The notes beneath the pieces are model-generated. The model was given only the letters and a program-made list of their open reading frames with translations, was not told the origin of the DNA and made no database searches. This document shows, one piece after another, positions 7,488-33,459 of a stretch of 64,000 nt of DNA (positions within the stretch are counted from its first letter, which is position 1; each line of letters opens with the position of its first letter). The stretch comes from Archangium gephyra. Lineage in GTDB: Bacteria > Myxococcota > Myxococcia > Myxococcales > Myxococcaceae. The DNA lies in NCBI RefSeq assembly GCF_001027285.1, contig NZ_CP011509.1, positions 3,604,501 to 3,668,500 on the forward strand, given 5' to 3'. A program made the position numbers and the translations under genes.

Positions 7488-8333
7488 ATGAAAGAGAAGA
7501 CCGTGGTCGTGACCGGTGCCAATTCGGGCGTGGGGCTCGCCACCGCGACGGAGCTGGCGCGAAGGGGTGCCACCGTCGTCATGGCCTGCCGCAGTGCCGC
7601 GCGCGGCGAGCAGGCGCTGAAGGAGGCCCGGCAGCGGAGCGGCTCGGACAAGCTCGAGCTCATGCTGTGCGACCTGGGCTCGCTGGAGAGCGTCCGCCAC
7701 TTCGCTCGTGAGCTCCAGAGCCGCCACCCGACGCTGGATGTGTTGATCAACAACGCGGGCGTCATCACCGTGAAGCGGGAGACGACGGCGGACGGGTTCG
7801 AGTCCCAGCTGGGTGTCAATCACCTGGGCCACTTCCTGCTGACGAACCTGCTGCTGGAGCCGCTTCGGCGGGCGCCCCAGGGACGGATCATCAATGTGTC
7901 CTCGGGCGCGCACAAGACGGGGTCCATCCACTGGGAGGATCCGCACCTGACGCGGAGCTTCGGGGTGTGGAAGGCCTATTCGCAGTCCAAGCTCGCCAAC
8001 ATCCTGTTCACGAAGGCGCTCGCGGAGCGGCTCCGGGGCACGGCCGTCACCGCCAACAGCCTGCACCCGGGAGCGGTCGGCTCCAACTTCGGCGTGGACC
8101 GTCAGACGGGGTTCGGCAAGCCCATCATGGCGTTCCTCGGGCTCTTCTTCCTGACACCGGAGCAGGGCGCCGAGACGTCCGTGTATCTGGCGGCGAGCGA
8201 CGAGGTCACTTCCGTCTCGGGTGAGTACTTCTACAGGAAGAAGCCCGCGCCGGTGTCGAAGAAGGCCCAGGACCGGGAGCTGGCCGAGAGGCTGTGGTCC
8301 TGGAGCGAGAAGCAAGTAGGGTGGACCGCCTAG
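7488..8333 (+). CDS. Short-chain dehydrogenase (retinol dehydrogenase-like SDR)
   Basis: About 281 residues. The cofactor motif TGANSGVG is near the N-terminus, NNAG follows at the usual spacing, and the catalytic triad is represented by S (NVSSG), then Y-x-x-x-K (YSQSK). This sequence type is close to the retinol dehydrogenase/WW-oxidoreductase-like SDRs, which act on lipophilic alcohols with NADP(H); the substrate is unknown. Start at ATG 7488 with GGAGGCGAG upstream; a GTG at 7458 overlapping the kinase stop is an alternative. The alpha/beta hydrolase gene follows after 10 bases, so the two form an operon. Confidence 0.9.
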   Translation: MKEKTVVVTGANSGVGLATATELARRGATVVMACRSAARGEQALKEARQRSGSDKLELMLCDLGSLESVRHFARELQSRHPTLDVLINNAGVITVKRETTADGFESQLGVNHLGHFLLTNLLLEPLRRAPQGRIINVSSGAHKTGSIHWEDPHLTRSFGVWKAYSQSKLANILFTKALAERLRGTAVTANSLHPGAVGSNFGVDRQTGFGKPIMAFLGLFFLTPEQGAETSVYLAASDEVTSVSGEYFYRKKPAPVSKKAQDRELAERLWSWSEKQVGWTA

Positions 8334-22098: not shown

Positions 22099-24927
22099 TC
22101 AGCTCACGGCGCTCGTGGGGCCCGAGGTGGGTGGACGGGAGATCCACGCGGCGATGAAGACGTCCAGCTCGCCGCGCAGCACGTCCTTCACGCGCGGCGT
22201 ACCAGCACCCGTGCGCGGGTCTTCCACGCGGGCGCCACGGCCCAGGTGGTAGCGCCGGGCCTCGTCCGCCGTGTTGCTGCCGCCCTGGCCCTTCACCACC
22301 CGCGAGGCGATGTCCTTCAGCTCGCCCAGCTCGCCCGCGCCCGCCAGCGTCATCATCCGGCCCGTGGTCTCGTCCTTCACCGTCACTTCCGTCTTCACCC
22401 GCGCGAGGTAGGTGCCCTCGTGCCGCCTCACCTCGCGGCCGTCCACGTCCAGGCTCTCCTCTTCCTCCACCGGCCCGCCCCGGTGCACCCGCACGTAGGC
22501 GCGCTGACGCTTCTCCTCGTCGATGCGCCGGTGCAGCCCCGCCTCGCCCGCCAAGTAGCCGTACGCCCCGGGCCCGGCGATCCGCAACACCACCCGGAAC
22601 GGCTCCTTCGCCTCCGCCACCGCCATCGCCTCGTAGCCGCGGCGCTCCGCCCAGCCCTGGTACATGGCCGCCAGCTCCTGCACCCAGGCGTCCTGTCCCT
22701 CGCCCGTCTCGCTCGCGCAGATGTCCACCAGCGCCTCGTCGCCGTGGTCCGATGCACCCGCGGCTCCCAGCACCTCGGCCATCTGCACCTCGCGCGCGAC
22801 CTCCTCCACCTGCTTCGCCGCCGACGCCAGCTGGCCCTCGCCCTTCGCCTCGCGCACCAGCCGCCGCGCGAACGTGGTCCGCTCCTCCATCCGGTCCAGC
22901 TCGTTGAGCTGCGCTTCCACCGAGCGGAACGCCCTCAGCGTCGATGCCGCGCGATCCGGGTCGTCCCACAGGTTGGGCGCCTGCGTCGCCGCCAGCAGCT
23001 CCGCTCGCCGCTCCTCCAGCCTCGGCCGGTTCGCCGACACCGCCAGCGCCCGCGCCCGTCCCACCAGCCGGTCCATCTCGTTGAGCAGCGACTTCTTGTC
23101 CAGCCGCCGCTTCACCGCCGACACCGACTTCTCCGTGGGCAGCGCGAGCTGTGCCGTCTCCTCACGCGGGCGCGGGGCGAGCTCGGCCACCGCCACCACC
23201 TTGCCACCCGGCCGCGTCTCCACCCGCACCGGCGCTCCCGGCGGCAGCGGCCGGCGGGCGATCTCCACCGCCAGCGCCGCCGTCAGCGTCTTCTCGATCT
23301 CCCGCTGCAGGTAGCGCGCGCCGAACTGCGGCGAGTAGCCCCGGTCCACCAGCAGGTCCACCACCGCGGGCGTCACCTCCACGTCCAGCCCACGCGCGCG
23401 GATGCCCTCGCGCTCCAGCACGCGGCCCACCTCGCGCTGGGCGATCTTCCGGATCTCCACCTTCGACAGCGGCTGGAAGTGGCAGATGGCGTCGAAGCGG
23501 TTGAGGAACTCGGGGCGGAAGGCCTCGGCGATGCGCCGGTCCACCTCGGTGATGAGCTCCTCCGGACGGCGCGAGCCGATGAAGCCGATGGCCGGCTCGC
23601 GGTACACCTCGGCGCCCACGTTGGACGTGGCCACGATGACGGTGTTGTTGCAGGAGATGGTCTCTCCCGCCCCGTTCACGAAGGTGCCCTCATCGAAGAG
23701 CTGCAGGAAACGGTCGTGCACACTGCGCGCGGCCTTCTCGAACTCGTCGAGCAGCAGCACGGTGAACACCTTCCCCTCCAGCAGCGCCGTCAGCTCACCG
23801 CGCTTCGTCTCCACCGCCGGGGCCCACGAGGCGCCGAAGGGCACGCTCTCGTCGCCGTCGTTGGGGAAGTCCGCCATGTTGAGGCGGACGAGCCTGTCCT
23901 GCGAGCCAAAGAGGTACTCGGCCAGCAGCTTCGCGAGCTGCGTCTTGCCCACGCCCGTGGGGCCGGCGAAGAGGAACACGCCCAGCGGCCGGCGAGGATC
24001 GTTCAACCCCGCCTTGAGCAGCGCCACCGAGCGCAGCACGGCCTGCACCGCGTCCGTCTGCCCGAGCAGCCGCTCACCGAAGAAGCGCTCCGTCTCCTCC
24101 AGGTCCAGCGCCATCGCGTCGTCCACGACGAAGCGCGGCAGCCGGGTGGTGGCGCAGAAGCGGGTGAGGACGTCCTCGGGACCCACGCGGTCCTTGGCTC
24201 CTCCGGCGGCCTCCGCGGCCGTCTCCTTGAGCAGCTCAATCGCCTTGCGCGGCAGCCGCTGGGCCAGCAGGAACTTGGAGGCCAGCCGCAGCGTCAGGTC
24301 GCACGCCGCCGGATCGATGGGCAGGTGCAGCTCGCGCTCCAGCTCCTCGGCCACGCGGCCCAATATCCACCGGGCCCGCTCGGCGGGCGGCTCCTGGAGG
24401 GGCACCAGGTGGAGCCGCTCGGAGAAGGCCTCGTCCGCGCGCAGCAGCTCCTGCACGCGCTTGGGCTCGGTCTCGAAGATGAAGCGGATGCCCCCCGTGC
24501 GCAGGGCCCGGAAGGCCACCGGGGCCAGCGGCCCGCCGATGACCGCGGGCAGATCCCGGATGTAGACGATGGGGCAGGGGTGACGGCTGAGCCAGGCCAG
24601 CAGCTCCTCGAACGTCTCCGCCGCCTGACGCTGGGTGCTGCGCGCCAGGATGTTGGCGACGGACACCTCCACCATCCGCGCGTTGGCGAGCTCCGCGTCC
24701 ACGCGGCCCTCGATGATGCGCCGCGCCACCTCCTGCACCAGGGCGGACTTGCCCACGCCCGGTTCGCCGGAGAGCAGCGGGTGCTTGCCCCCTCGTGACA
24801 GGAGGCCGAGCACCTCCATCACCGCGCCGTCCACTCCGTGGGCGGCCGAGAGCTTCCCCTCCCGCGCCAGCGCGGTCAGGTCTCGGTCGATGAGCCTCTC
24901 GTTGTCCTCGCTCTTCCTGGTGGCCAT
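22099..24927 (-). CDS. Double AAA+ ATPase (ClpA/ClpC-like) fused to a GGQ-less release-factor-2-like domain
   Basis: 942 residues. There is no ClpN domain. AAA-1 has Walker A GEPGVGKS (54-61) but a degenerate Walker B (IVYIRDLP). AAA-2 has Walker A GPTGVGKT (322-329), Walker B LLLDEFEK (391-398) and Arg finger LNRFDA (R477). Between them and at the ClpP-loop position of ClpA/ClpC sits AIGF (446-449). From ~600 on, the chain follows RF2: PCRF helices with PNLWDDPDRA (651-660), then GLHRRIDEEK where RF2 has GVHRLVRxSPF, EGT (837-839) where RF2 has GGQ, and a full RF2 tail VEDPRTGAGT...LRGELDVFIAAW. Both the catalytic GGQ and the SPF stop-codon motif are gone, so it cannot act as a normal release factor. 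A ribosome-linked unfoldase is my inference. Confidence 0.85.
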   Translation of the reverse strand: MATRKSEDNERLIDRDLTALAREGKLSAAHGVDGAVMEVLGLLSRGGKHPLLSGEPGVGKSALVQEVARRIIEGRVDAELANARMVEVSVANILARSTQRQAAETFEELLAWLSRHPCPIVYIRDLPAVIGGPLAPVAFRALRTGGIRFIFETEPKRVQELLRADEAFSERLHLVPLQEPPAERARWILGRVAEELERELHLPIDPAACDLTLRLASKFLLAQRLPRKAIELLKETAAEAAGGAKDRVGPEDVLTRFCATTRLPRFVVDDAMALDLEETERFFGERLLGQTDAVQAVLRSVALLKAGLNDPRRPLGVFLFAGPTGVGKTQLAKLLAEYLFGSQDRLVRLNMADFPNDGDESVPFGASWAPAVETKRGELTALLEGKVFTVLLLDEFEKAARSVHDRFLQLFDEGTFVNGAGETISCNNTVIVATSNVGAEVYREPAIGFIGSRRPEELITEVDRRIAEAFRPEFLNRFDAICHFQPLSKVEIRKIAQREVGRVLEREGIRARGLDVEVTPAVVDLLVDRGYSPQFGARYLQREIEKTLTAALAVEIARRPLPPGAPVRVETRPGGKVVAVAELAPRPREETAQLALPTEKSVSAVKRRLDKKSLLNEMDRLVGRARALAVSANRPRLEERRAELLAATQAPNLWDDPDRAASTLRAFRSVEAQLNELDRMEERTTFARRLVREAKGEGQLASAAKQVEEVAREVQMAEVLGAAGASDHGDEALVDICASETGEGQDAWVQELAAMYQGWAERRGYEAMAVAEAKEPFRVVLRIAGPGAYGYLAGEAGLHRRIDEEKRQRAYVRVHRGGPVEEEESLDVDGREVRRHEGTYLARVKTEVTVKDETTGRMMTLAGAGELGELKDIASRVVKGQGGSNTADEARRYHLGRGARVEDPRTGAGTPRVKDVLRGELDVFIAAWISRPPTSGPTSAVS

Positions 24928-25021: not shown

Positions 25022-25222
25022 TCAGCACTCGGCGACGGGGTGCCCCCAGGGGTTGGAGGCGGGGGTCTGGCGCAGCAGGGCCTCGAGCCGCCGGGCCCGG
25101 GCGCTGGCACTCTCCTGCTTCGGGGTGAGGGGGGGCCGCACCGTGGCGCTCAGGCGCGCGGCCTGACTCGCCAGGAGCTGCTCCACCTCCGGAGACAGAC
25201 GATCGAACTCGAGCCACTCCAT
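25022..25222 (-). CDS. Small hypothetical protein, 66 residues
   Basis: Begins MEWLEFDRLSPEVEQLL; AGGGAGAAA precedes the ATG, which supports it over longer upstream frames. Mostly helical and basic (SARARRLEALLRQ), with a single Cys at the end. No domain recognised. Confidence 0.6.
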   Translation of the reverse strand: MEWLEFDRLSPEVEQLLASQAARLSATVRPPLTPKQESASARARRLEALLRQTPASNPWGHPVAEC

Positions 25223-26934: not shown

Positions 26935-27009
26935 TGTCCGCGGCGAGAGTCGAACTCGCACGTGAGCTGGGTTTGAGCCAGCCGCCTCTCCCGATTGGGC
27001 CACGCGGAC
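26935..27009 (-). tRNA. tRNA-Leu (CAA), class I body
   Basis: Full cloverleaf: acceptor GTCCGCG/CGCGGAC, D-stem GCC/GGC, anticodon loop CTCAAAC (CAA at 26973-26975), T-arm GCGAG/CTCGC. The variable loop is six bases (TCACGT), whereas leucine tRNAs normally have a long variable arm. Identity rests on the anticodon alone. Confidence 0.8.
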
Positions 27010-27030
27010 GGGTTGGGGAGCCTGTTGCAG

Positions 27031-27103
27031 TACACGCCCTGGGGATCGAACCCAGCAGACCTGGTGTGTGGGACCAGTGCCGTCTCCAGCTGGCTCGGCG
27101 TGC
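27031..27103 (-). tRNA. tRNA-Val (CAC) with C33
   Basis: Acceptor GCACGCC/GGCGTGT, D-stem GCC/GGC, T-arm CTGGG/CCCAG. Anticodon stem CTGGT/ACCAG encloses CCCACAC, so CAC (27068-27070) is preceded by C at position 33 rather than the nearly universal T; position 8 is G instead of T. Possibly impaired. Confidence 0.75.
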
Positions 27104-27126
27104 AAGAGAAAGAAGAAGGTGAGGAG

Positions 27127-27200
27127 TGCCCCCGGTCGGGATCGAACCGACGACCCCCGGTTTACGAAACCGGTGCTGCTGCCAGCTGAGCTACAGGGGC
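27127..27200 (-). tRNA. tRNA-Thr (CGT)
   Basis: Acceptor GCCCCTG/CGGGGGC with one T-G pair, anticodon loop TTCGTAA (27164-27166), T-arm GTCGG/CCGAC. Canonical form; discriminator A; CCA not encoded. Confidence 0.93.
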
Positions 27201-27216
27201 AAAACGGTGCCGCGAG

Positions 27217-27289
27217 TGCCGACCCCAGGAATCGAACCCGGTCCTCCCGTGCTTCAGACGGGCGCGCGGACCACCTACGCCAGGTCGGC
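27217..27289 (-). tRNA. tRNA-Phe (GAA)
   Basis: Acceptor GCCGACC/GGTCGGC, D-arm GCG/CGC, anticodon stem CCCGT/ACGGG with loop CTGAAGC (27253-27255), T-stem CCGGG/CCTGG. Confidence 0.9.
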
Positions 27290-27298
27290 TTGAGACAG

Positions 27299-27370
27299 TT
27301 GCGGAGCAGGGAGTCGAACCCTGCGGCCCAGGCTTATGAGACCCGGTGGGACGTCCGGTCCCACTCCGCA
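27299..27370 (-). tRNA. tRNA-Met (CAT), elongator type or Ile2
   Basis: Acceptor TGCGGAG/CTCCGCA with a paired T1-A72, so not an initiator. Anticodon CAT at 27336-27338 in loop CTCATAA. The D-arm is unusual: a six-pair stem TGGGAC/GTCCCA with a five-base loop. CAT could be modified to read ATA, which cannot be seen. Confidence 0.82.
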
Positions 27371-27377
27371 TCACGAC

Positions 27378-27455
27378 TGGTGCCCCCGGCAGGACTCGAA
27401 CCTGCGGCCTCTCGGTTCGGAACCGAGCGCTCTGCTCCAACTGAGCTACGGGGGC
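27378..27455 (-). tRNA. tRNA-Arg (CCG)
   Basis: Acceptor GCCCCCG/CGGGGGC, anticodon loop TTCCGAA (27418-27420), T-arm GCAGG/CCTGC. Canonical, and the only member of the cluster with an encoded CCA end (27378-27380). Confidence 0.95.
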
Positions 27456-27463
27456 GAAAATGG

Positions 27464-27538
27464 CGGCTCCGGCAGGACTTGAACCTGCGGCCTCTCGGTT
27501 CGTAGCCGAGCGCTCTGATCCAACTGAGCTACGGAGCC
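27464..27538 (-). tRNA. tRNA-Arg (ACG)
   Basis: Acceptor GGCTCCG/CGGAGCC, anticodon loop CTACGAA (27501-27503). A34 would be deaminated to inosine to read CGT, CGC and CGA. Shares anticodon stem, variable loop and T-stem with the neighbouring Arg(CCG) gene, so a duplication is likely. Confidence 0.95.
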
Positions 27539-27545
27539 AGACAAG

Positions 27546-27618
27546 GTCGGCTGGAGGGACTCGAACCCTCTGGAACCGGATTCACAGACCGGTGGCTCAC
27601 CCTTTGCCTTCAGCCAAC
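27546..27618 (-). tRNA. tRNA-His (GTG)
   Basis: Encodes the extra G-1 paired with C73 that marks histidine tRNAs. Anticodon GTG at 27583-27585. The anticodon stem has a T31-T39 mismatch, and position 8 is A. D-stem GGC/GCC, T-arm GAGGG/CCCTC. Confidence 0.85.
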
Positions 27619-27626
27619 ATGACACA

Positions 27627-27700
27627 TCTGGGTGACAGGATTTGAACCTGCGACCTCGCGGACCCGAACCGCGCGCTCTACCAAATTGAGCTACACCCAG
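27627..27700 (-). tRNA. tRNA-Pro (CGG)
   Basis: Acceptor CTGGGTG/CACCCAG, anticodon stem CGCGG/CCGCG with loop TTCGGGT (27664-27666), T-arm GCAGG/CCTGT. Canonical. Confidence 0.93.
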
Positions 27701-27735
27701 GAAAAACAACCACGACTGCGACTGCGACAACGGAG

Positions 27736-27811
27736 TCGGGATGGCCGGATTTGAACCGACGGCCTCGTGCACCCCAAGCACGCGCTCTCGTCCAGGCTGA
27801 GCTACATCCCG
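27736..27811 (-). tRNA. tRNA-Pro (GGG)
   Basis: Acceptor CGGGATG/CATCCCG, anticodon stem CGTGC/GCACG with loop TTGGGGT (27773-27775), long 11-base D-loop, T-arm GTCGG/CCGGC. Confidence 0.93.
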
Positions 27812-27817
27812 AGGAAG

Positions 27818-27889
27818 CTCCACAGGAGGGATTCGAACCCCCAACCTGACGCTTAACAGGCGCCCGCTCTTCCCTTGAGCTACTGTGGA
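27818..27889 (-). tRNA. tRNA-Asn (GTT)
   Basis: Acceptor TCCACAG/CTGTGGA, anticodon loop CTGTTAA (27855-27857), T-stem GGGGG/CCCTC. Only six bases separate it from the following Pro(GGG) gene. Confidence 0.93.
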
Positions 27890-27906
27890 ATGTGTTGCAT
27901 TGAGAG

Positions 27907-27978
27907 CTCCGGGAGCAGGGTTCGAACCTGCATTTGCGGGGTCAGAGCCCGCCGTCCTGCCGATTGGACGATCCCGGA
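27907..27978 (-). tRNA. tRNA-Gln (CTG)
   Basis: Acceptor TCCGGGA/TCCCGGA, D-stem GTCC/GGAC, anticodon loop CTCTGAC (27943-27945), T-arm GCAGG/CCTGC. Canonical. Confidence 0.93.
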
Positions 27979-27987
27979 ATGAAGTGG

Positions 27988-28058
27988 AGCGGGTGACGGG
28001 ATTCGAACCCGTGTTTCCGGTATGGGAGACCGGCGTCCTGCCACTGGACGACACCCGC
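27988..28058 (-). tRNA. tRNA-Gly (CCC)
   Basis: Acceptor GCGGGTG/CACCCGC, anticodon stem CCGGT/ACCGG with loop CTCCCAT (28024-28026), T-arm ACGGG/CCCGT, discriminator T as usual for glycine. Confidence 0.94.
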
Positions 28059-28063
28059 GTGAG

Positions 28064-28134
28064 TACCTCCGGAGGGATTCGAACCCTCGCCACCCGCTTA
28101 AGAGGCGGGTGCTCTACCGATGAGCTACGGAGGC
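28064..28134 (-). tRNA. tRNA-Lys (CTT)
   Basis: Acceptor GCCTCCG/CGGAGGT (G1-T72 wobble), D-stem GCTC/GAGC, anticodon loop CTCTTAA (28100-28102), T-arm GAGGG/CCCTC. A 74-base gap separates it from tRNA-Tyr. Confidence 0.92.
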
Positions 28135-28208
28135 GTGTGCCGCCTCGCGTGAGGGCAGGCGGCGCTTCACCACTGCGATTCAGTTGTCAGAGAGCTGCGA
28201 ACTGCGAG

Positions 28209-28290
28209 TGGGGACGCTGGGAGTCGAACCCAGCGGGCCAAGGGCTCCGGCTCTACAGGCCGGCGCGTCTCCGTAACGCTCTACGTCCCC
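28209..28290 (-). tRNA. tRNA-Tyr (GTA), first gene of the array
   Basis: Class II with a 13-base variable arm, as expected for bacterial Tyr. Acceptor GGGGACG/CGTCCCC, anticodon loop CTGTAGA (28254-28256), T-arm CTGGG/CCCAG. The D-arm is shifted: GCGT/ACGC with four linker bases after the acceptor stem. Confidence 0.88.
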
Positions 28291-29998: not shown

Positions 29999-30065
29999 AC
30001 GCTGGGCTGATCGGGTGCCCCCCCTCGTTCGTCACGCCCGATCTCTCCCCACACGGAGGCAATAA

Positions 30066-30260
30066 ATGAAGAAGGACACGACCAAGAAGCCGTTCTTCGC
30101 GCGTCTGCTCGAGCAGCAGGAGCTGGACCAGGTGGCCGGTGGCGCGGACCAGACCCAGAAGTATCCCTCGGACGGAGATGACACCACCGTCACCCTCCAG
30201 GACTCTTCCGTCGACGGGACCCTGAAGTACCCCTCCGACTCCGACGACCGCGACCTGTAA
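30066..30260 (+). CDS. mdnA: Microviridin-type graspetide precursor with two core repeats
   Basis: 64 residues. The leader has PFFARLLEQQ (9-18), the alpha-helical recognition motif of microviridin ligases, and a GG pair at 25-26. Two cores follow: T30-Q-KYPSD-G-DD (to 39) and T52-L-KYPSD-S-DD (to 61). In microviridins the Thr and Ser form esters, and the Lys an amide, with the acidic residues of T-x-KYPSD-x-E/D-E/D. Both cores keep all of these positions, so one precursor should give two tricyclic units or one longer peptide. The acidic end is Asp-only; cyanobacterial cores mostly carry Glu and an aromatic residue there. Two ligase genes follow directly. GGAGG lies seven bases before the ATG. 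Confidence 0.93.
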   Translation: MKKDTTKKPFFARLLEQQELDQVAGGADQTQKYPSDGDDTTVTLQDSSVDGTLKYPSDSDDRDL

Positions 30261-30297
30261 GAAGTCCCTGGCGGCCTGTTGAGCGCCACGTCCCTCC

Positions 30298-31293
30298 ATG
30301 CCCCCCGACCACGACATCGTCCTGCTCCTCACCCACAGTGCCGACTTCTACACGGTCGACAGGGTGGCCGAGGAGCTGTCGCGGCGGGGGGTTCGTTCCG
30401 TGCGGGTCGACACGGATGGCTTCCCGGCGCGGCTGGAGCTGACGTCGAGCCTGGGGCCTGGCGGGGACGAGGTGGTGCTGCGGACGGCGGCGGGCGAGCT
30501 GCGCGGCGAGGACGTGCGGTCGGTGTGGCTGCGCCGGCTGGTGTCCCCCCGGCTCGATGAGTCGCTGGACCCGGACTGGCGGGAGAGCTGCGTGCGCGAG
30601 TCGCGGGCGGCGCTCGAGGGTTTCCTCGACGGGCTGCGGGCCGCGGGCTGCCCCTTCCTCAACCCGCTCGGCGCGGAGCAGGCGGGCAACAAGCTGCGCC
30701 AGTTGCGGCTGGCCGTCGCCCAGGGGCTGGAGGTACCGCCCACGCTGGTGACCAATGACGCCGAGCGCGTCCGGTCCTTCTTCGCGCGGGTGCGCGGCCG
30801 CATGGTGGCCAAGATGCAGACGCCCCTGACGCAGTCCATGGCGGGCGGGCAGCCCTTCGTCTACACGAGCGCGATCGGCCCCGAGCACCTCGAGGAGCTG
30901 GAGGGGCTGCGTCACAGTCCCATGATGTTCCAGGAGCGCATCGACAAGGCGCACGAGCTGCGGGTGGCCGTGGTGGGCGAGCGCTGCTTCGTGGGGGCCA
31001 TTGACGCCTCGCGCTCGGCGGAGGGGCAGGTGGACTGGCGGCGCTCACGGCCGGGCGAGGTCCACTGGGAGAAGGGCGAGCTGCCGCCCGAGGTGGCCGA
31101 GCGCCTGGTGCGTCTGGTCGCGGAGCTGGGGCTGGTGTACGGCGCCGCGGATTTCATCGTCACACCCGAGGGACGTCACGTCTTCCTCGAGGTCAACCCC
31201 GGGGGCGAGTGGGGCATGCTCGAGAAGGAGCTCGGCCTGCCCATCGCCGCGGCCCTGGCTGACGCGCTCGCGTCCGCGGGCCCTACCCCCTGA
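30298..31293 (+). CDS. mdnB: Graspetide ATP-grasp ligase, MdnB/MvdC type (lactam-forming)
   Basis: 331 residues. Begins with IVLLLTHSADFYTVDRVAEEL, the MvdC/MdnB signature, then VRVDTDGFPARLEL. The ATP-grasp core has RMVAKMQTPL, PMMFQERIDKAHELRVAVVG and a C-terminal VTPEGRHVFLEVNPGGEW with the Mg-binding Glu and Asn. In microviridin synthesis this ligase closes the Lys-acid amide after the esters exist. It starts 37 bases behind the precursor and is followed after 21 bases by the ester-forming ligase, so the three form one operon. Confidence 0.92.
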   Translation: MPPDHDIVLLLTHSADFYTVDRVAEELSRRGVRSVRVDTDGFPARLELTSSLGPGGDEVVLRTAAGELRGEDVRSVWLRRLVSPRLDESLDPDWRESCVRESRAALEGFLDGLRAAGCPFLNPLGAEQAGNKLRQLRLAVAQGLEVPPTLVTNDAERVRSFFARVRGRMVAKMQTPLTQSMAGGQPFVYTSAIGPEHLEELEGLRHSPMMFQERIDKAHELRVAVVGERCFVGAIDASRSAEGQVDWRRSRPGEVHWEKGELPPEVAERLVRLVAELGLVYGAADFIVTPEGRHVFLEVNPGGEWGMLEKELGLPIAAALADALASAGPTP

Positions 31294-31314
31294 CGGCATA
31301 CACGCGGGAGCGTC

Positions 31315-32316
31315 ATGGCCATCCTCATCGTCACCCATTCCAAGGACAACGAGGCGCCTCGCGCCGTGCGGCGTGCCCTCGAGGCGCGCGGCGAGCGGGT
31401 CTACCGGTTCGACTCGGACTTGTTCCCCACCCAGCTCCAGCTCTCGCTCGACGAGGCGGGGGCGGGCCGGCTGTCGGGGCCCGATGGGCAGCTCGAGCTG
31501 CCGGAGATCTCCGCCATCTGGTACCGCCGCAACGCCACGGGGGCGGGTATCCCCAAGGACCTGGACGAGCAGCTGCGCAAGCCCTCGGTGGAGGAGAGCC
31601 GGCGCCTGGTGTTCGGGATGATGACGGCGCTTGGCGTCTTCCAGCTGGATGCGCTGGATGTGGTGCGGCGCGCGGAGCACAAGCCGCTGCAACTCAAGCT
31701 CGCGCGGGCGCTGGGGATGGAGGTGCCACGCACGCTGATGACCAATGATCCGGCGGCGGTGCGCGCCTTCGCCGCGAGCTGCCCCGGCGGGGTGGTGACG
31801 AAGATGATGTCGTCCTTCGCCGTCTACGACGAGCAGGGCCGGGAGCAGGTGGTCTTCACCACGCCGCTGGAGGCGCACGAGCTGGAGGACCTGGAGGGCC
31901 TGGACCTGTGTCCGATGACCTTCCAGGAGCGGCTGGTGAAGCAGGTGGAGCTGCGGGTGACGGTGGTGGGGGAGCGGGTGATGGCGGCGGCCATCGACTC
32001 GCAGGCGCTGCCCAAGGCGCGGGAGGACTGGCGCCGGGAGGGCGCGGCGCTCATCGACGCGTGGAAGCCCTACACGCTGCCCGAGCGGTTGCGGACGCAG
32101 GTGGTGCGGCTGATGGATGCGCTGGGCCTCAACTACGGCGCGTTCGACTTCATCGTCACGCCCGAGGGCCGGCACGTCTTCCTCGAGGTGAACCCAGCGG
32201 GCGAGTTCATGTGGTTGATGCGCCACCCCGGGCTGCCCATCGACGAGGCGCTGGCGGACGTGCTCTCCGGGCGCGCGGCCCGCAGGTCCGGTCCCAGACC
32301 GTTGCCGTCACCGTGA
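31315..32316 (+). CDS. mdnC: Graspetide ATP-grasp ligase, MdnC/MvdD type (ester-forming)
   Basis: 333 residues. ILIVTHSKDNEAPRAV, FRFDSD-like YRFDSDLFPTQ and ISAIWYRRN match the MvdD/MdnC group. The core contains VVTKMMSSFAVYDEQG, CPMTFQERLVKQVELRVTVVGE and VTPEGRHVFLEVNPAGEF. MdnC acts first, forming the Thr and Ser esters on leader-bound precursor. No acetyltransferase (MdnD) or dedicated ABC exporter (MdnE) follows; the next gene is a small unrelated protein. Export and leader removal must come from elsewhere. Confidence 0.92.
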   Translation: MAILIVTHSKDNEAPRAVRRALEARGERVYRFDSDLFPTQLQLSLDEAGAGRLSGPDGQLELPEISAIWYRRNATGAGIPKDLDEQLRKPSVEESRRLVFGMMTALGVFQLDALDVVRRAEHKPLQLKLARALGMEVPRTLMTNDPAAVRAFAASCPGGVVTKMMSSFAVYDEQGREQVVFTTPLEAHELEDLEGLDLCPMTFQERLVKQVELRVTVVGERVMAAAIDSQALPKAREDWRREGAALIDAWKPYTLPERLRTQVVRLMDALGLNYGAFDFIVTPEGRHVFLEVNPAGEFMWLMRHPGLPIDEALADVLSGRAARRSGPRPLPSP

Positions 32317-32387: not shown

Positions 32388-32621
32388 ATGGCAAAGTCCC
32401 CGTGCCCCGTGACGCTGAAGCAGTTCCAGGAGAAGGCCGAGCCGTTGAAGGTGGTCATCAACGGCCAGGAGATGCTCGCCGAGGTGAAGGCATTCTCGAC
32501 GGGCTCCTTCGGCTGGAACATCAACGGCAAGATGACCATCACCGTCGATGGCAAGCCGGTGTCGGTGCAGATCGGCATGAACATGACGGTGGTGGGCTCG
32601 AAGGAAGCCGCCCGGGAGTGA
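32388..32621 (+). CDS. Small conserved-looking protein, 77 residues
   Basis: Begins MAKSPCPVTLKQF. Mostly beta strands (LKVVINGQEML, KMTITVDGKPVSVQIGMNMTVVGS), no signal or membrane part. No family recognised. It is 71 bases behind the ester ligase on the same strand and may share its transcript; it converges on the ThiF-like gene with one base between stops. Confidence 0.68.
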   Translation: MAKSPCPVTLKQFQEKAEPLKVVINGQEMLAEVKAFSTGSFGWNINGKMTITVDGKPVSVQIGMNMTVVGSKEAARE

Positions 32622-32622
32622 C

Positions 32623-33201
32623 TCACGACGCGGTGGGCGTCACCGCGACGAGGCTCACCATCGCGTCGCGGCGGGTGCCGTGCTTGACGAAGTCCTGCAC
32701 CACCCGCGCGAGCGTGGCGCCGAGCTGGCCGATGAGGGGCAGGTGGGCCCCTCCCTCGCAGGTGGCCTGACCCGCGGTGTCCTCGGCGTCCGGGACGAAA
32801 CGCTCGTCCCAGCGCACCAGTCCGAAGGTGCCATCCGCCGCCAGCGCCCCGTGCACCAGCGGCTTGCCCGCCGTGCGCGCGAAGTCGCTCAGCAGCAACC
32901 GGCTCGCCTGGTTGTCGAAGCAGTCGACGAGCAGGTCCGCGTTGGCGCACAGCGCGGCCACGTTGTCGCGCGTCACCCGCACGCCGAAGGCCTCGGCCTT
33001 CACCCCGTGCAGGTTGAGCAGCTGGAGCTTCAGCGCCTCGGCCTTGTTCTTCCCCACCGAGGGCTTCACGAAGGCCTGCGCGAGCAGGTTCTTGGACTCC
33101 ACCCGGTCGAAGTCGATGAAGACGAGCGTGGCCTCCAGGTTGCGGCACAGCACCGCCGCCGTGGAGCCGATGGCGCCCACGCCACAGAAGAGGATGCGCA
33201 T
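32623..33201 (-). CDS. E1-like adenylyltransferase (ThiF/MoeB/HesA family), short form
   Basis: 192 residues. Nucleotide-binding GVGAIGS at residues 7-13, DFDRVESKNLLAQ (the DxDxVexsN pattern), GKNKAEAL with the catalytic Lys region, DCFDN, and QATCEGGAHLPLIGQLG, whose Cys aligns with the thioester Cys of ThiF-type E1 proteins. Such enzymes adenylate the C-terminus of a ubiquitin-like or sulfur-carrier protein. There are no CxxC zinc pairs of MoeB type. GAGGAGG precedes the ATG by eight bases. The gene just upstream (12 bases) codes for a possible beta-grasp protein; no ThiS, MoaD or thiamine gene is nearby. Confidence 0.85.
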   Translation of the reverse strand: MRILFCGVGAIGSTAAVLCRNLEATLVFIDFDRVESKNLLAQAFVKPSVGKNKAEALKLQLLNLHGVKAEAFGVRVTRDNVAALCANADLLVDCFDNQASRLLLSDFARTAGKPLVHGALAADGTFGLVRWDERFVPDAEDTAGQATCEGGAHLPLIGQLGATLARVVQDFVKHGTRRDAMVSLVAVTPTAS

Positions 33202-33213
33202 GGCCGGCCCTCC

Positions 33214-33459
33214 TCAGGCCCCGAAGGGCACCTTGGGACGCAGGTAGATGCGCTCGTCGCCCCGGGGACCGCGGAACCGGTCCACCACGTAGTGGACGAA
33301 GGCGTCCTCGCGCAGGTGGGCGATGTGCAGCCCCGGCGCTCCACCCGAGCGCACCACCTCCAGGGCGATGCGCCGCACGTCCCCGTCCGACACGTGGCCG
33401 TCCAGCTCCAGGGGCAGGTCCGAGGACAGGCCGTTGTAGGTGATGTTCAGCGTCGCCAT
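33214..33459 (-). CDS. Small protein, possible beta-grasp partner of the E1-like enzyme
   Basis: 81 residues, AAGGAG ahead of the ATG. MATLNITYNGLSSDLPLEL suggests a beta hairpin, GDVRRIALEVV a helix, and DERIYLRPKVPFGA a closing strand, which is the order of a beta-grasp (ubiquitin-like) fold. The C-terminus is FGA, not GG, so carrier function is uncertain. Its only neighbour on the same strand is the ThiF-like gene, 12 bases downstream, so the two act together. No named family recognised. Confidence 0.72.
   Translation of the reverse strand: MATLNITYNGLSSDLPLELDGHVSDGDVRRIALEVVRSGGAPGLHIAHLREDAFVHYVVDRFRGPRGDERIYLRPKVPFGA

Follow-up and report, generated by a model that had tools for sequence, protein, structure and literature searches.

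A two-core class II microviridin-type locus with all-aspartate cores in Archangium gephyra

Class II microviridins are defined by up to five cores and a double-glycine motif on the precursor (PMC13039773). Among the closest described systems, AMdnA/AMdnC of Anabaena sp. PCC 7120 is likewise of class II, with one leader, several TxKYPSDx(D/E)(E/D) cores and MdnB/MdnC ligases, and AMdnC works distributively, core by core; AMdnA carries three cores, whereas the precursor described here carries two, both all-Asp (PMC5934393). Microviridin E of Planktothrix agardhii likewise has Asp in place of Glu, at the second position from the C-terminus, but is a single 13-residue cyanobacterial peptide, unlike the two-core precursor here (PMC7823629). 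Chryseoviridin, likewise a multicore graspetide made with a related ATP-grasp ligase (CdnC, 7mgv), has cores that contain TxKxPSDxD[DE] (PMC8939145); it comes from Chryseobacterium and differs from our precursor in its longer cores and possible further linkages. In Archangium itself, microviridin is among the clusters given as conserved in a 2025 survey (PMC12766979, Table 5), whose antiSMASH microviridin-type clusters are of the same class in Archangium, Cystobacter, and Sorangium and probably include the present locus; two microviridin-type clusters are listed for Archangium sp. Cb G35 (PMC5323630). Precursor sequences, core counts, and remote precursors are not given in the antiSMASH listings themselves, and are given here.

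The stretch analyzed (hereafter the window) comprises 64,000 nucleotides of the A. gephyra chromosome (12,489,432 bases, single contig). We read the locus at its center as a working class II microviridin (graspetide) cluster encoding a peptide with two caged heads, and judge this reading, which is drawn from sequence, to be about 80% probable; it is a sound, ordinary member of the class II microviridins. No description of this precursor was found among the best matches listed for the literature searched, which consists mostly of open journals and provides weak evidence of absence. Features are summarized in Table 1.

Table 1. Features of the microviridin-type cluster (positions in the window).
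Feature	Position	Strand	Basis
GGAGG ribosome-binding site, 6 bases 5' of precursor start	30055..30059	+	read directly
Precursor peptide, 64 aa, class II microviridin type	30066..30260	+	NF033738, PF12559
Leader recognition helix PFFARLLEQQ, residues 9-18	30090..30119	+	sequence; published PFFARFL motif (PMC7823629)
Double-glycine site, residues 25-26 (ELDQVAGG, residues 19-26)	30138..30143	+	predicted leader cleavage
Core 1 TQKYPSDGDD, residues 30-39	30153..30182	+	read from sequence
Core 2 TLKYPSDSDD, residues 52-61	30219..30248	+	read from sequence
MvdC/MdnB-type ATP-grasp ligase, predicted lactam former, 331 aa	30298..31293	+	TIGR04185, PF21068, PDB
MvdD/MdnC-type ATP-grasp ligase, predicted lactone former, 333 aa	31315..32316	+	TIGR04184, PF21068, PDB

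Reading of the open reading frame bears out the precursor proposed in an earlier note on this DNA, namely 64 residues with a PFFARLLExQ leader and two T-x-KYPSD-x-D-D cores separated by 12 residues (spacer TTVTLQDSSVDG). The precursor scores 48.7 bits against NF033738 (E 9.8e-13, cut-off 26) and 31.3 bits against PF12559 (cut-off 21), and its match to the microviridin/marinostatin family is more than chance. With a PFFAR-type leader helix and two copies of the TxKxPSDx(D/E)(D/E) core, and with both ligases matching their respective families best, the microviridin-type assignment of that note holds; more than one core together with a GG site (VAGG) on a single precursor places it in class II. 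The GG site, ahead of core 1, is a feature that the note did not mention. Among 27 precursors compared, GG follows the leader in 24 (exceptions L036, L044, and L055), and GGAG precedes the start codon in all 27 genes when compared by eye. In two of the 27 only, a quasi-core like that of AMdnA is possible in the linker (TLQDSSVDG here and TLQESNSEG in A. violaceum).

The two genes downstream, previously called MdnB- and MdnC-type ligases, are full length and match those families as well as solved structures. The MdnB-type ligase scores 402 bits against TIGR04185, its best model, yet below the curated cut-off of 425; the MdnC-type ligase scores 435.6 bits against TIGR04184, the best of the related models and below the curated cut-off of 475, which is exceeded in none of the 96 family genomes. 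The closest solved chains are 5ig8 and 7m4s (AMdnB) for the former and 5ig9 (E 7.4e-98) for the latter, and MdnC of the window shares 48-55% identity with its counterparts at the cyanobacterial loci compared. Residues K163, D278, E291, and N293 of MdnC are invariant across 24 of 24 family rows; K163 and D278 have the spacing of K165 and D280 of AMdnC (equated by spacing, not by alignment), mutants of which are inactive (PMC5934393). The counterpart of Glu191, which contacts the leader in Microcystis MdnC, is His188 here, the position being counted on the structure-match alignment. On the ligase trees, A. violaceum is the closest relative of the window ligases, while deep branching is open at 6 of 21 inner branches for MdnC and 7 of 18 for MdnB.

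Upstream, the cluster is adjoined by an array of 15 tRNA genes (26935-28290, minus strand) and an S58 peptidase gene; downstream lie genes for a 77-aa, a ThiF-like, and an 81-aa protein. Array size varies in Archangium (15 genes in G004, 14 in G002, 10 each in G003 and G006, and 6 in G005). Because the S58 and ThiF genes are present in far more genomes than the ligases, they were taken as flanks. The S58 (DmpA-type) peptidase was rejected as the leader peptidase of the cluster: at E <= 1e-60 it is matched in 76 of 96 genomes (a count that takes in a paralogue about 50% identical), and just three of the neighborhoods fetched (the window, G002, and G004) have it next to the cluster. The ThiF gene, found in 74 of 96 genomes with or without ligases, was likewise not retained as a tailoring gene, nor were the 81-aa and 77-aa genes. 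These three form a compact group at 32388-33459 (ThiF-like protein, 192 aa, minus; 81 aa, minus; 77 aa, plus), in which the two small proteins have no significant Pfam match. A plasmid origin of the cluster was also rejected, since just short ATP-grasp similarity was seen in 8 actinobacterial plasmids. Also in the window, a 942-aa protein (22102-24927, minus) combines Clp/AAA+ ATPase domains (AAA_2, ClpB_D2-small) with a peptide-chain-release-factor (PCRF) domain, and belongs to a family of the same length in six fetched neighborhoods of relatives.

The classical cyanobacterial microviridin cluster includes genes for an N-acetyltransferase (MdnD) and an ABC transporter (MdnE). Neither of these, nor a C39 domain, was reported among the 14 neighboring proteins scanned (18.6-42.1 kb, leaving out three small predicted ORFs at 25025, 36210, and 39009), in agreement with the earlier report that acetyltransferase and transporter genes are missing. 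A C39 peptidase/transporter often, though not always, accompanies class II clusters; there is none beside this one, and the eight C39 matches over cut-off in the genome (four above 110 bits) all lie outside the window.

Genome mining for the precursor in relatives, proposed earlier as a check, gave matches in 20 of 96 family genomes. The 33 NF033738 match rows reduce to 31 loci, since G033 has a tandem pair and a single G092 ORF yields two rows; the neighborhoods of 30 were retrieved, the window supplying the remaining one. A phylum-wide search of 195 genomes added two genomes (G182 and G185) beyond the same 20. One chromosomal place, marked by the tRNA array and/or the ThiF side, holds the cluster in each of the six Archangium genomes compared and in three of the four from the related genus g6. 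Within Archangium, the precursor has three cores in G003 and G006 and is missing from the cluster in G005, and core 1 of A. violaceum reads TMKYPSDGHD, in which one acid is absent. Cores were counted in a set of 34 family precursor ORFs (129 cores, 33 loci), including two loci found via their ligases (L105 and L106): one ORF has a single core, 24 have two, two have three, one has four, and six have 8-16. Two cores are the norm in the family, and precursors with up to five cores are already published (PMC13039773, PMC7823629), so that the two-core form loses the novelty claimed for it.

Giant precursors of roughly 307-479 aa with 8-16 cores were seen at L042:7623-8864, L051:7626-8687, L053:7395-8354 (at a contig end), L064:7098-8468, L062:5462-6382, and L105:7047-8078. 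A further one with 10 cores, L153:1517-2953, has a different and longer N-terminal region, while the others have one of roughly 100-130 aa in common. In the four that were scanned (L064, L042, L153, and L105), Pfam matches fall in the leader/core part only, and the giant-precursor loci all trace to metagenome-assembled genomes. Precursors with 8-16 cores exceed the class II maximum of five stated in PMC13039773 and, lying outside this genome, are among the most interesting leads.

Cores ending in DD make up 11 of the 129 in the family set, and only four of 33 multi-core family precursors (the window, L043, L046, and L061) have DD in every core. Outside the family, a DD core occurs in 18 of 53 precursor ORFs (46 loci); it is the last core in all 15 multi-core ORFs that have one, and DD throughout was found in none of 36. 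This external count left out L109-L116, seven loci duplicating family genomes, and ORFs lacking the leader pattern. Multi-core precursors that are all-Asp throughout are rare, which is what remains of the earlier claim that the pattern was undescribed: the published core motif TX1KYPSDX2D/EE/D admits it (PMC5934393), Asp occupies the lactam position in microviridin E, single DD cores are found in the outside ORFs, and the core TQKYPSDGDD recurs identically in four cyanobacterial loci (L122, L126, L129, and L130). The acid pattern is unusual, though not unprecedented. Of the suggestion that ring sizes may differ from known microviridins, the part concerning the lactam stands, a Lys-Asp ring being predicted to differ; relatives commonly have Asp at the second acidic position, DE being the second commonest ending, so against those the lactam ring alone would differ in size.

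The following route is proposed for the product. The leader helix PFFARLL would dock on MdnC, which would close two lactones per core (Thr1-Asp7 and Ser6-Asp9); MdnB would afterwards add a Lys3-Asp10 lactam to each core, a ring one atom shorter than its Glu counterpart. Cleavage after GlyGly by a C39-type peptidase/exporter whose gene lies elsewhere would then release a six-ring peptide of 38 residues with two caged heads and a predicted monoisotopic mass of 4039.78 (4147.85 less six waters). Each head is expected to inhibit a serine protease, with a selectivity that would depend on the residue between Thr and Lys, which is Gln in core 1 and Leu in core 2. Such inhibition may serve predation or self-protection, as the earlier note suggested. 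A second two-core precursor, encoded 2.9 Mb away, may be a further substrate of this ligase pair. Inhibition of elastase is known for a microviridin B precursor that is fully modified but retains its leader (PMC11672978).

Evidence on the division of labor between the ligases comes from three family genomes (G009, G010, and G087) with an MdnC-level but no MdnB-level match, the absence being less sure in G087, which is 90% complete. The lactam Lys is absent from all 21 cores of these genomes (L105, L062, and L106, respectively), with Arg in 20 and Ala in one, and the last acid is also missing in 15 of the 17 cores of G009 and G010. At the other family loci, Lys is found in 105 of 108 cores, and the three Arg exceptions all belong to L064, where they lie beside an MdnB gene. 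Loss of Lys without MdnB fits a role of MdnB in making the Lys lactam, although the link is not clean and is mixed outside the family: L120 has MdnB beside two cores without Lys, and L123, L132, L133, and L151, for which no MdnB match was seen in the stretch fetched, retain Lys in some or all cores. The products of G009, G010, and G087 are predicted to be lactam-free multi-core peptides, and family genomes without MdnB constitute a natural test of the enzyme roles.

Two explanations compete with a working cluster that makes six rings. According to one, all-Asp cores would only become bicyclic, with MdnC making both lactones, MdnB failing at the shorter Lys-Asp lactam, and four waters lost rather than six. 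The Asp lactam may indeed fail because correct cyclisation is said to need Lys and Glu, MdnC being less rigid than MdnB, in a review (PMC7823629) that also allows Glu or Asp in the amide bond and reports Asp at the lactam position of microviridin E. Exchange of Asp and Glu at this position between close species whose ligases are nearly identical speaks against such a failure (DD/DD in G031 and G032 versus DE/DE in G033, ligase dN 0.022-0.034), as does the exchange inside a single G002 precursor (DD then DE), and family cores have mostly lost Lys only where MdnB is lost, with the exceptions at L064 and the mixed picture outside the family noted above. We consider a bicyclic product unlikely. 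A decaying relic in this strain is far less probable still: the same locus in G034, the fourth g6 genome, has decayed to a gapped MdnB remnant beside the 77-aa and ThiF genes, and G005 shows that the cluster precursor can be lost, but the window retains three full-length genes, a ribosome-binding site ahead of the precursor, and conserved catalytic residues, and ligase dN/dS is well under 1 (0.16-0.37 pairwise among nine pairs). The six-ring product of a working cluster is the reading we prefer.

A working cluster leaves room for a wider role, in which one ligase pair would modify far-away precursors in trans besides its own; we put the chances of this at about even. A ligase gene adjoins the precursor at 20 of the 31 loci; another, L051, is truncated by the end of its contig; and at the other ten none is present within 8 kb. 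All eight genomes holding these ten loci (G000, G002, G003, G005, G006, G031, G032, and G033) carry one or two complete pairs elsewhere. In the genome of the window, G000, a single pair is accompanied by two precursors separated by 2.93 Mb; the second, with two cores, lies near 6,565,621 (L058, G000:C1:6557621-6573731, at 7956-8180), where genes for KAS III and a PF02458 transferase precede it on the same strand and no ligase gene occurs within 8 kb. The L058 neighborhood is common to precursor loci of G002 and G005, and in L057 (G002) ORFs with similar starts occur in the same order, as compared by ORF starts. In G005, a full-length pair sits at the usual locus by the tRNA array, and the 17 kb examined there contain no precursor motif; the sole NF033738 match of this genome is some 3.3 Mb distant, assuming a circular chromosome. 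In this one species, the cluster's own precursor is gone and its ligases are full length. Eight of the ten ligase-free loci share their neighborhood with another ligase-free locus, L054 shares its own with the complete L061, and L041 with none. dN is below dS in all seven ligase-free precursor pairs tested and in the L054-L061 pair, and exceeds it in one of seven cluster-precursor pairs (L046-L059), all of these being short genes. L054 (G033) retains an open precursor near 8183 (minus strand) and ligases shrunk to a 60-residue MdnC remnant (7570-7749), whereas the syntenic L061 (G032) is complete.

Set against modification in trans are an Arg to His change in the leader of the G000 remote precursor and a Gln there in one of those of G002, partly degenerate remote cores in G005 (SKKYPSDSDE and TLKFPSDDAD), and, for G005 MdnC, a dN/dS against the others of 0.27-0.35, marginally higher than the range found among the remaining eight (0.17-0.31); both G005 ligases together span 0.24-0.37 against those eight. 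More distant ATP-grasp homologues in several of these genomes could act instead (G000 has one, 356 residues, 78.8 bits), the genomes are not independent, coming from two genera, and the precursor genes are short. In the 70 upstream bases compared by eye, no clear element shared by cluster and remote precursors was seen. That one MdnB/MdnC pair serves dispersed two-core precursors, kept by descent at fixed places megabases away, in Archangium and g6, as an in-trans, combinatorial graspetide system, is accordingly offered tentatively, at a shade under even odds. No description of remote graspetide precursors or of such a system was found among the best 15 of 248, 10 of 37, and 12 of 407 matches, mostly from open journals. 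Precursors modified in trans would escape surveys that, like PMC8939145, consider only those next to ATP-grasp genes.

The cluster that antiSMASH labels "microviridin", listed as conserved in Archangium, now has a concrete precursor and mass predictions, and Asp/Glu swaps between close species make tolerance of lactam ring size directly testable. One ligase pair with scattered precursors is a better lead than the two-core form. Should the remote precursors indeed be modified in trans, mining tied to neighboring ligases undercounts graspetide products, and one ligase pair would be a natural platform for several double-headed protease inhibitors.
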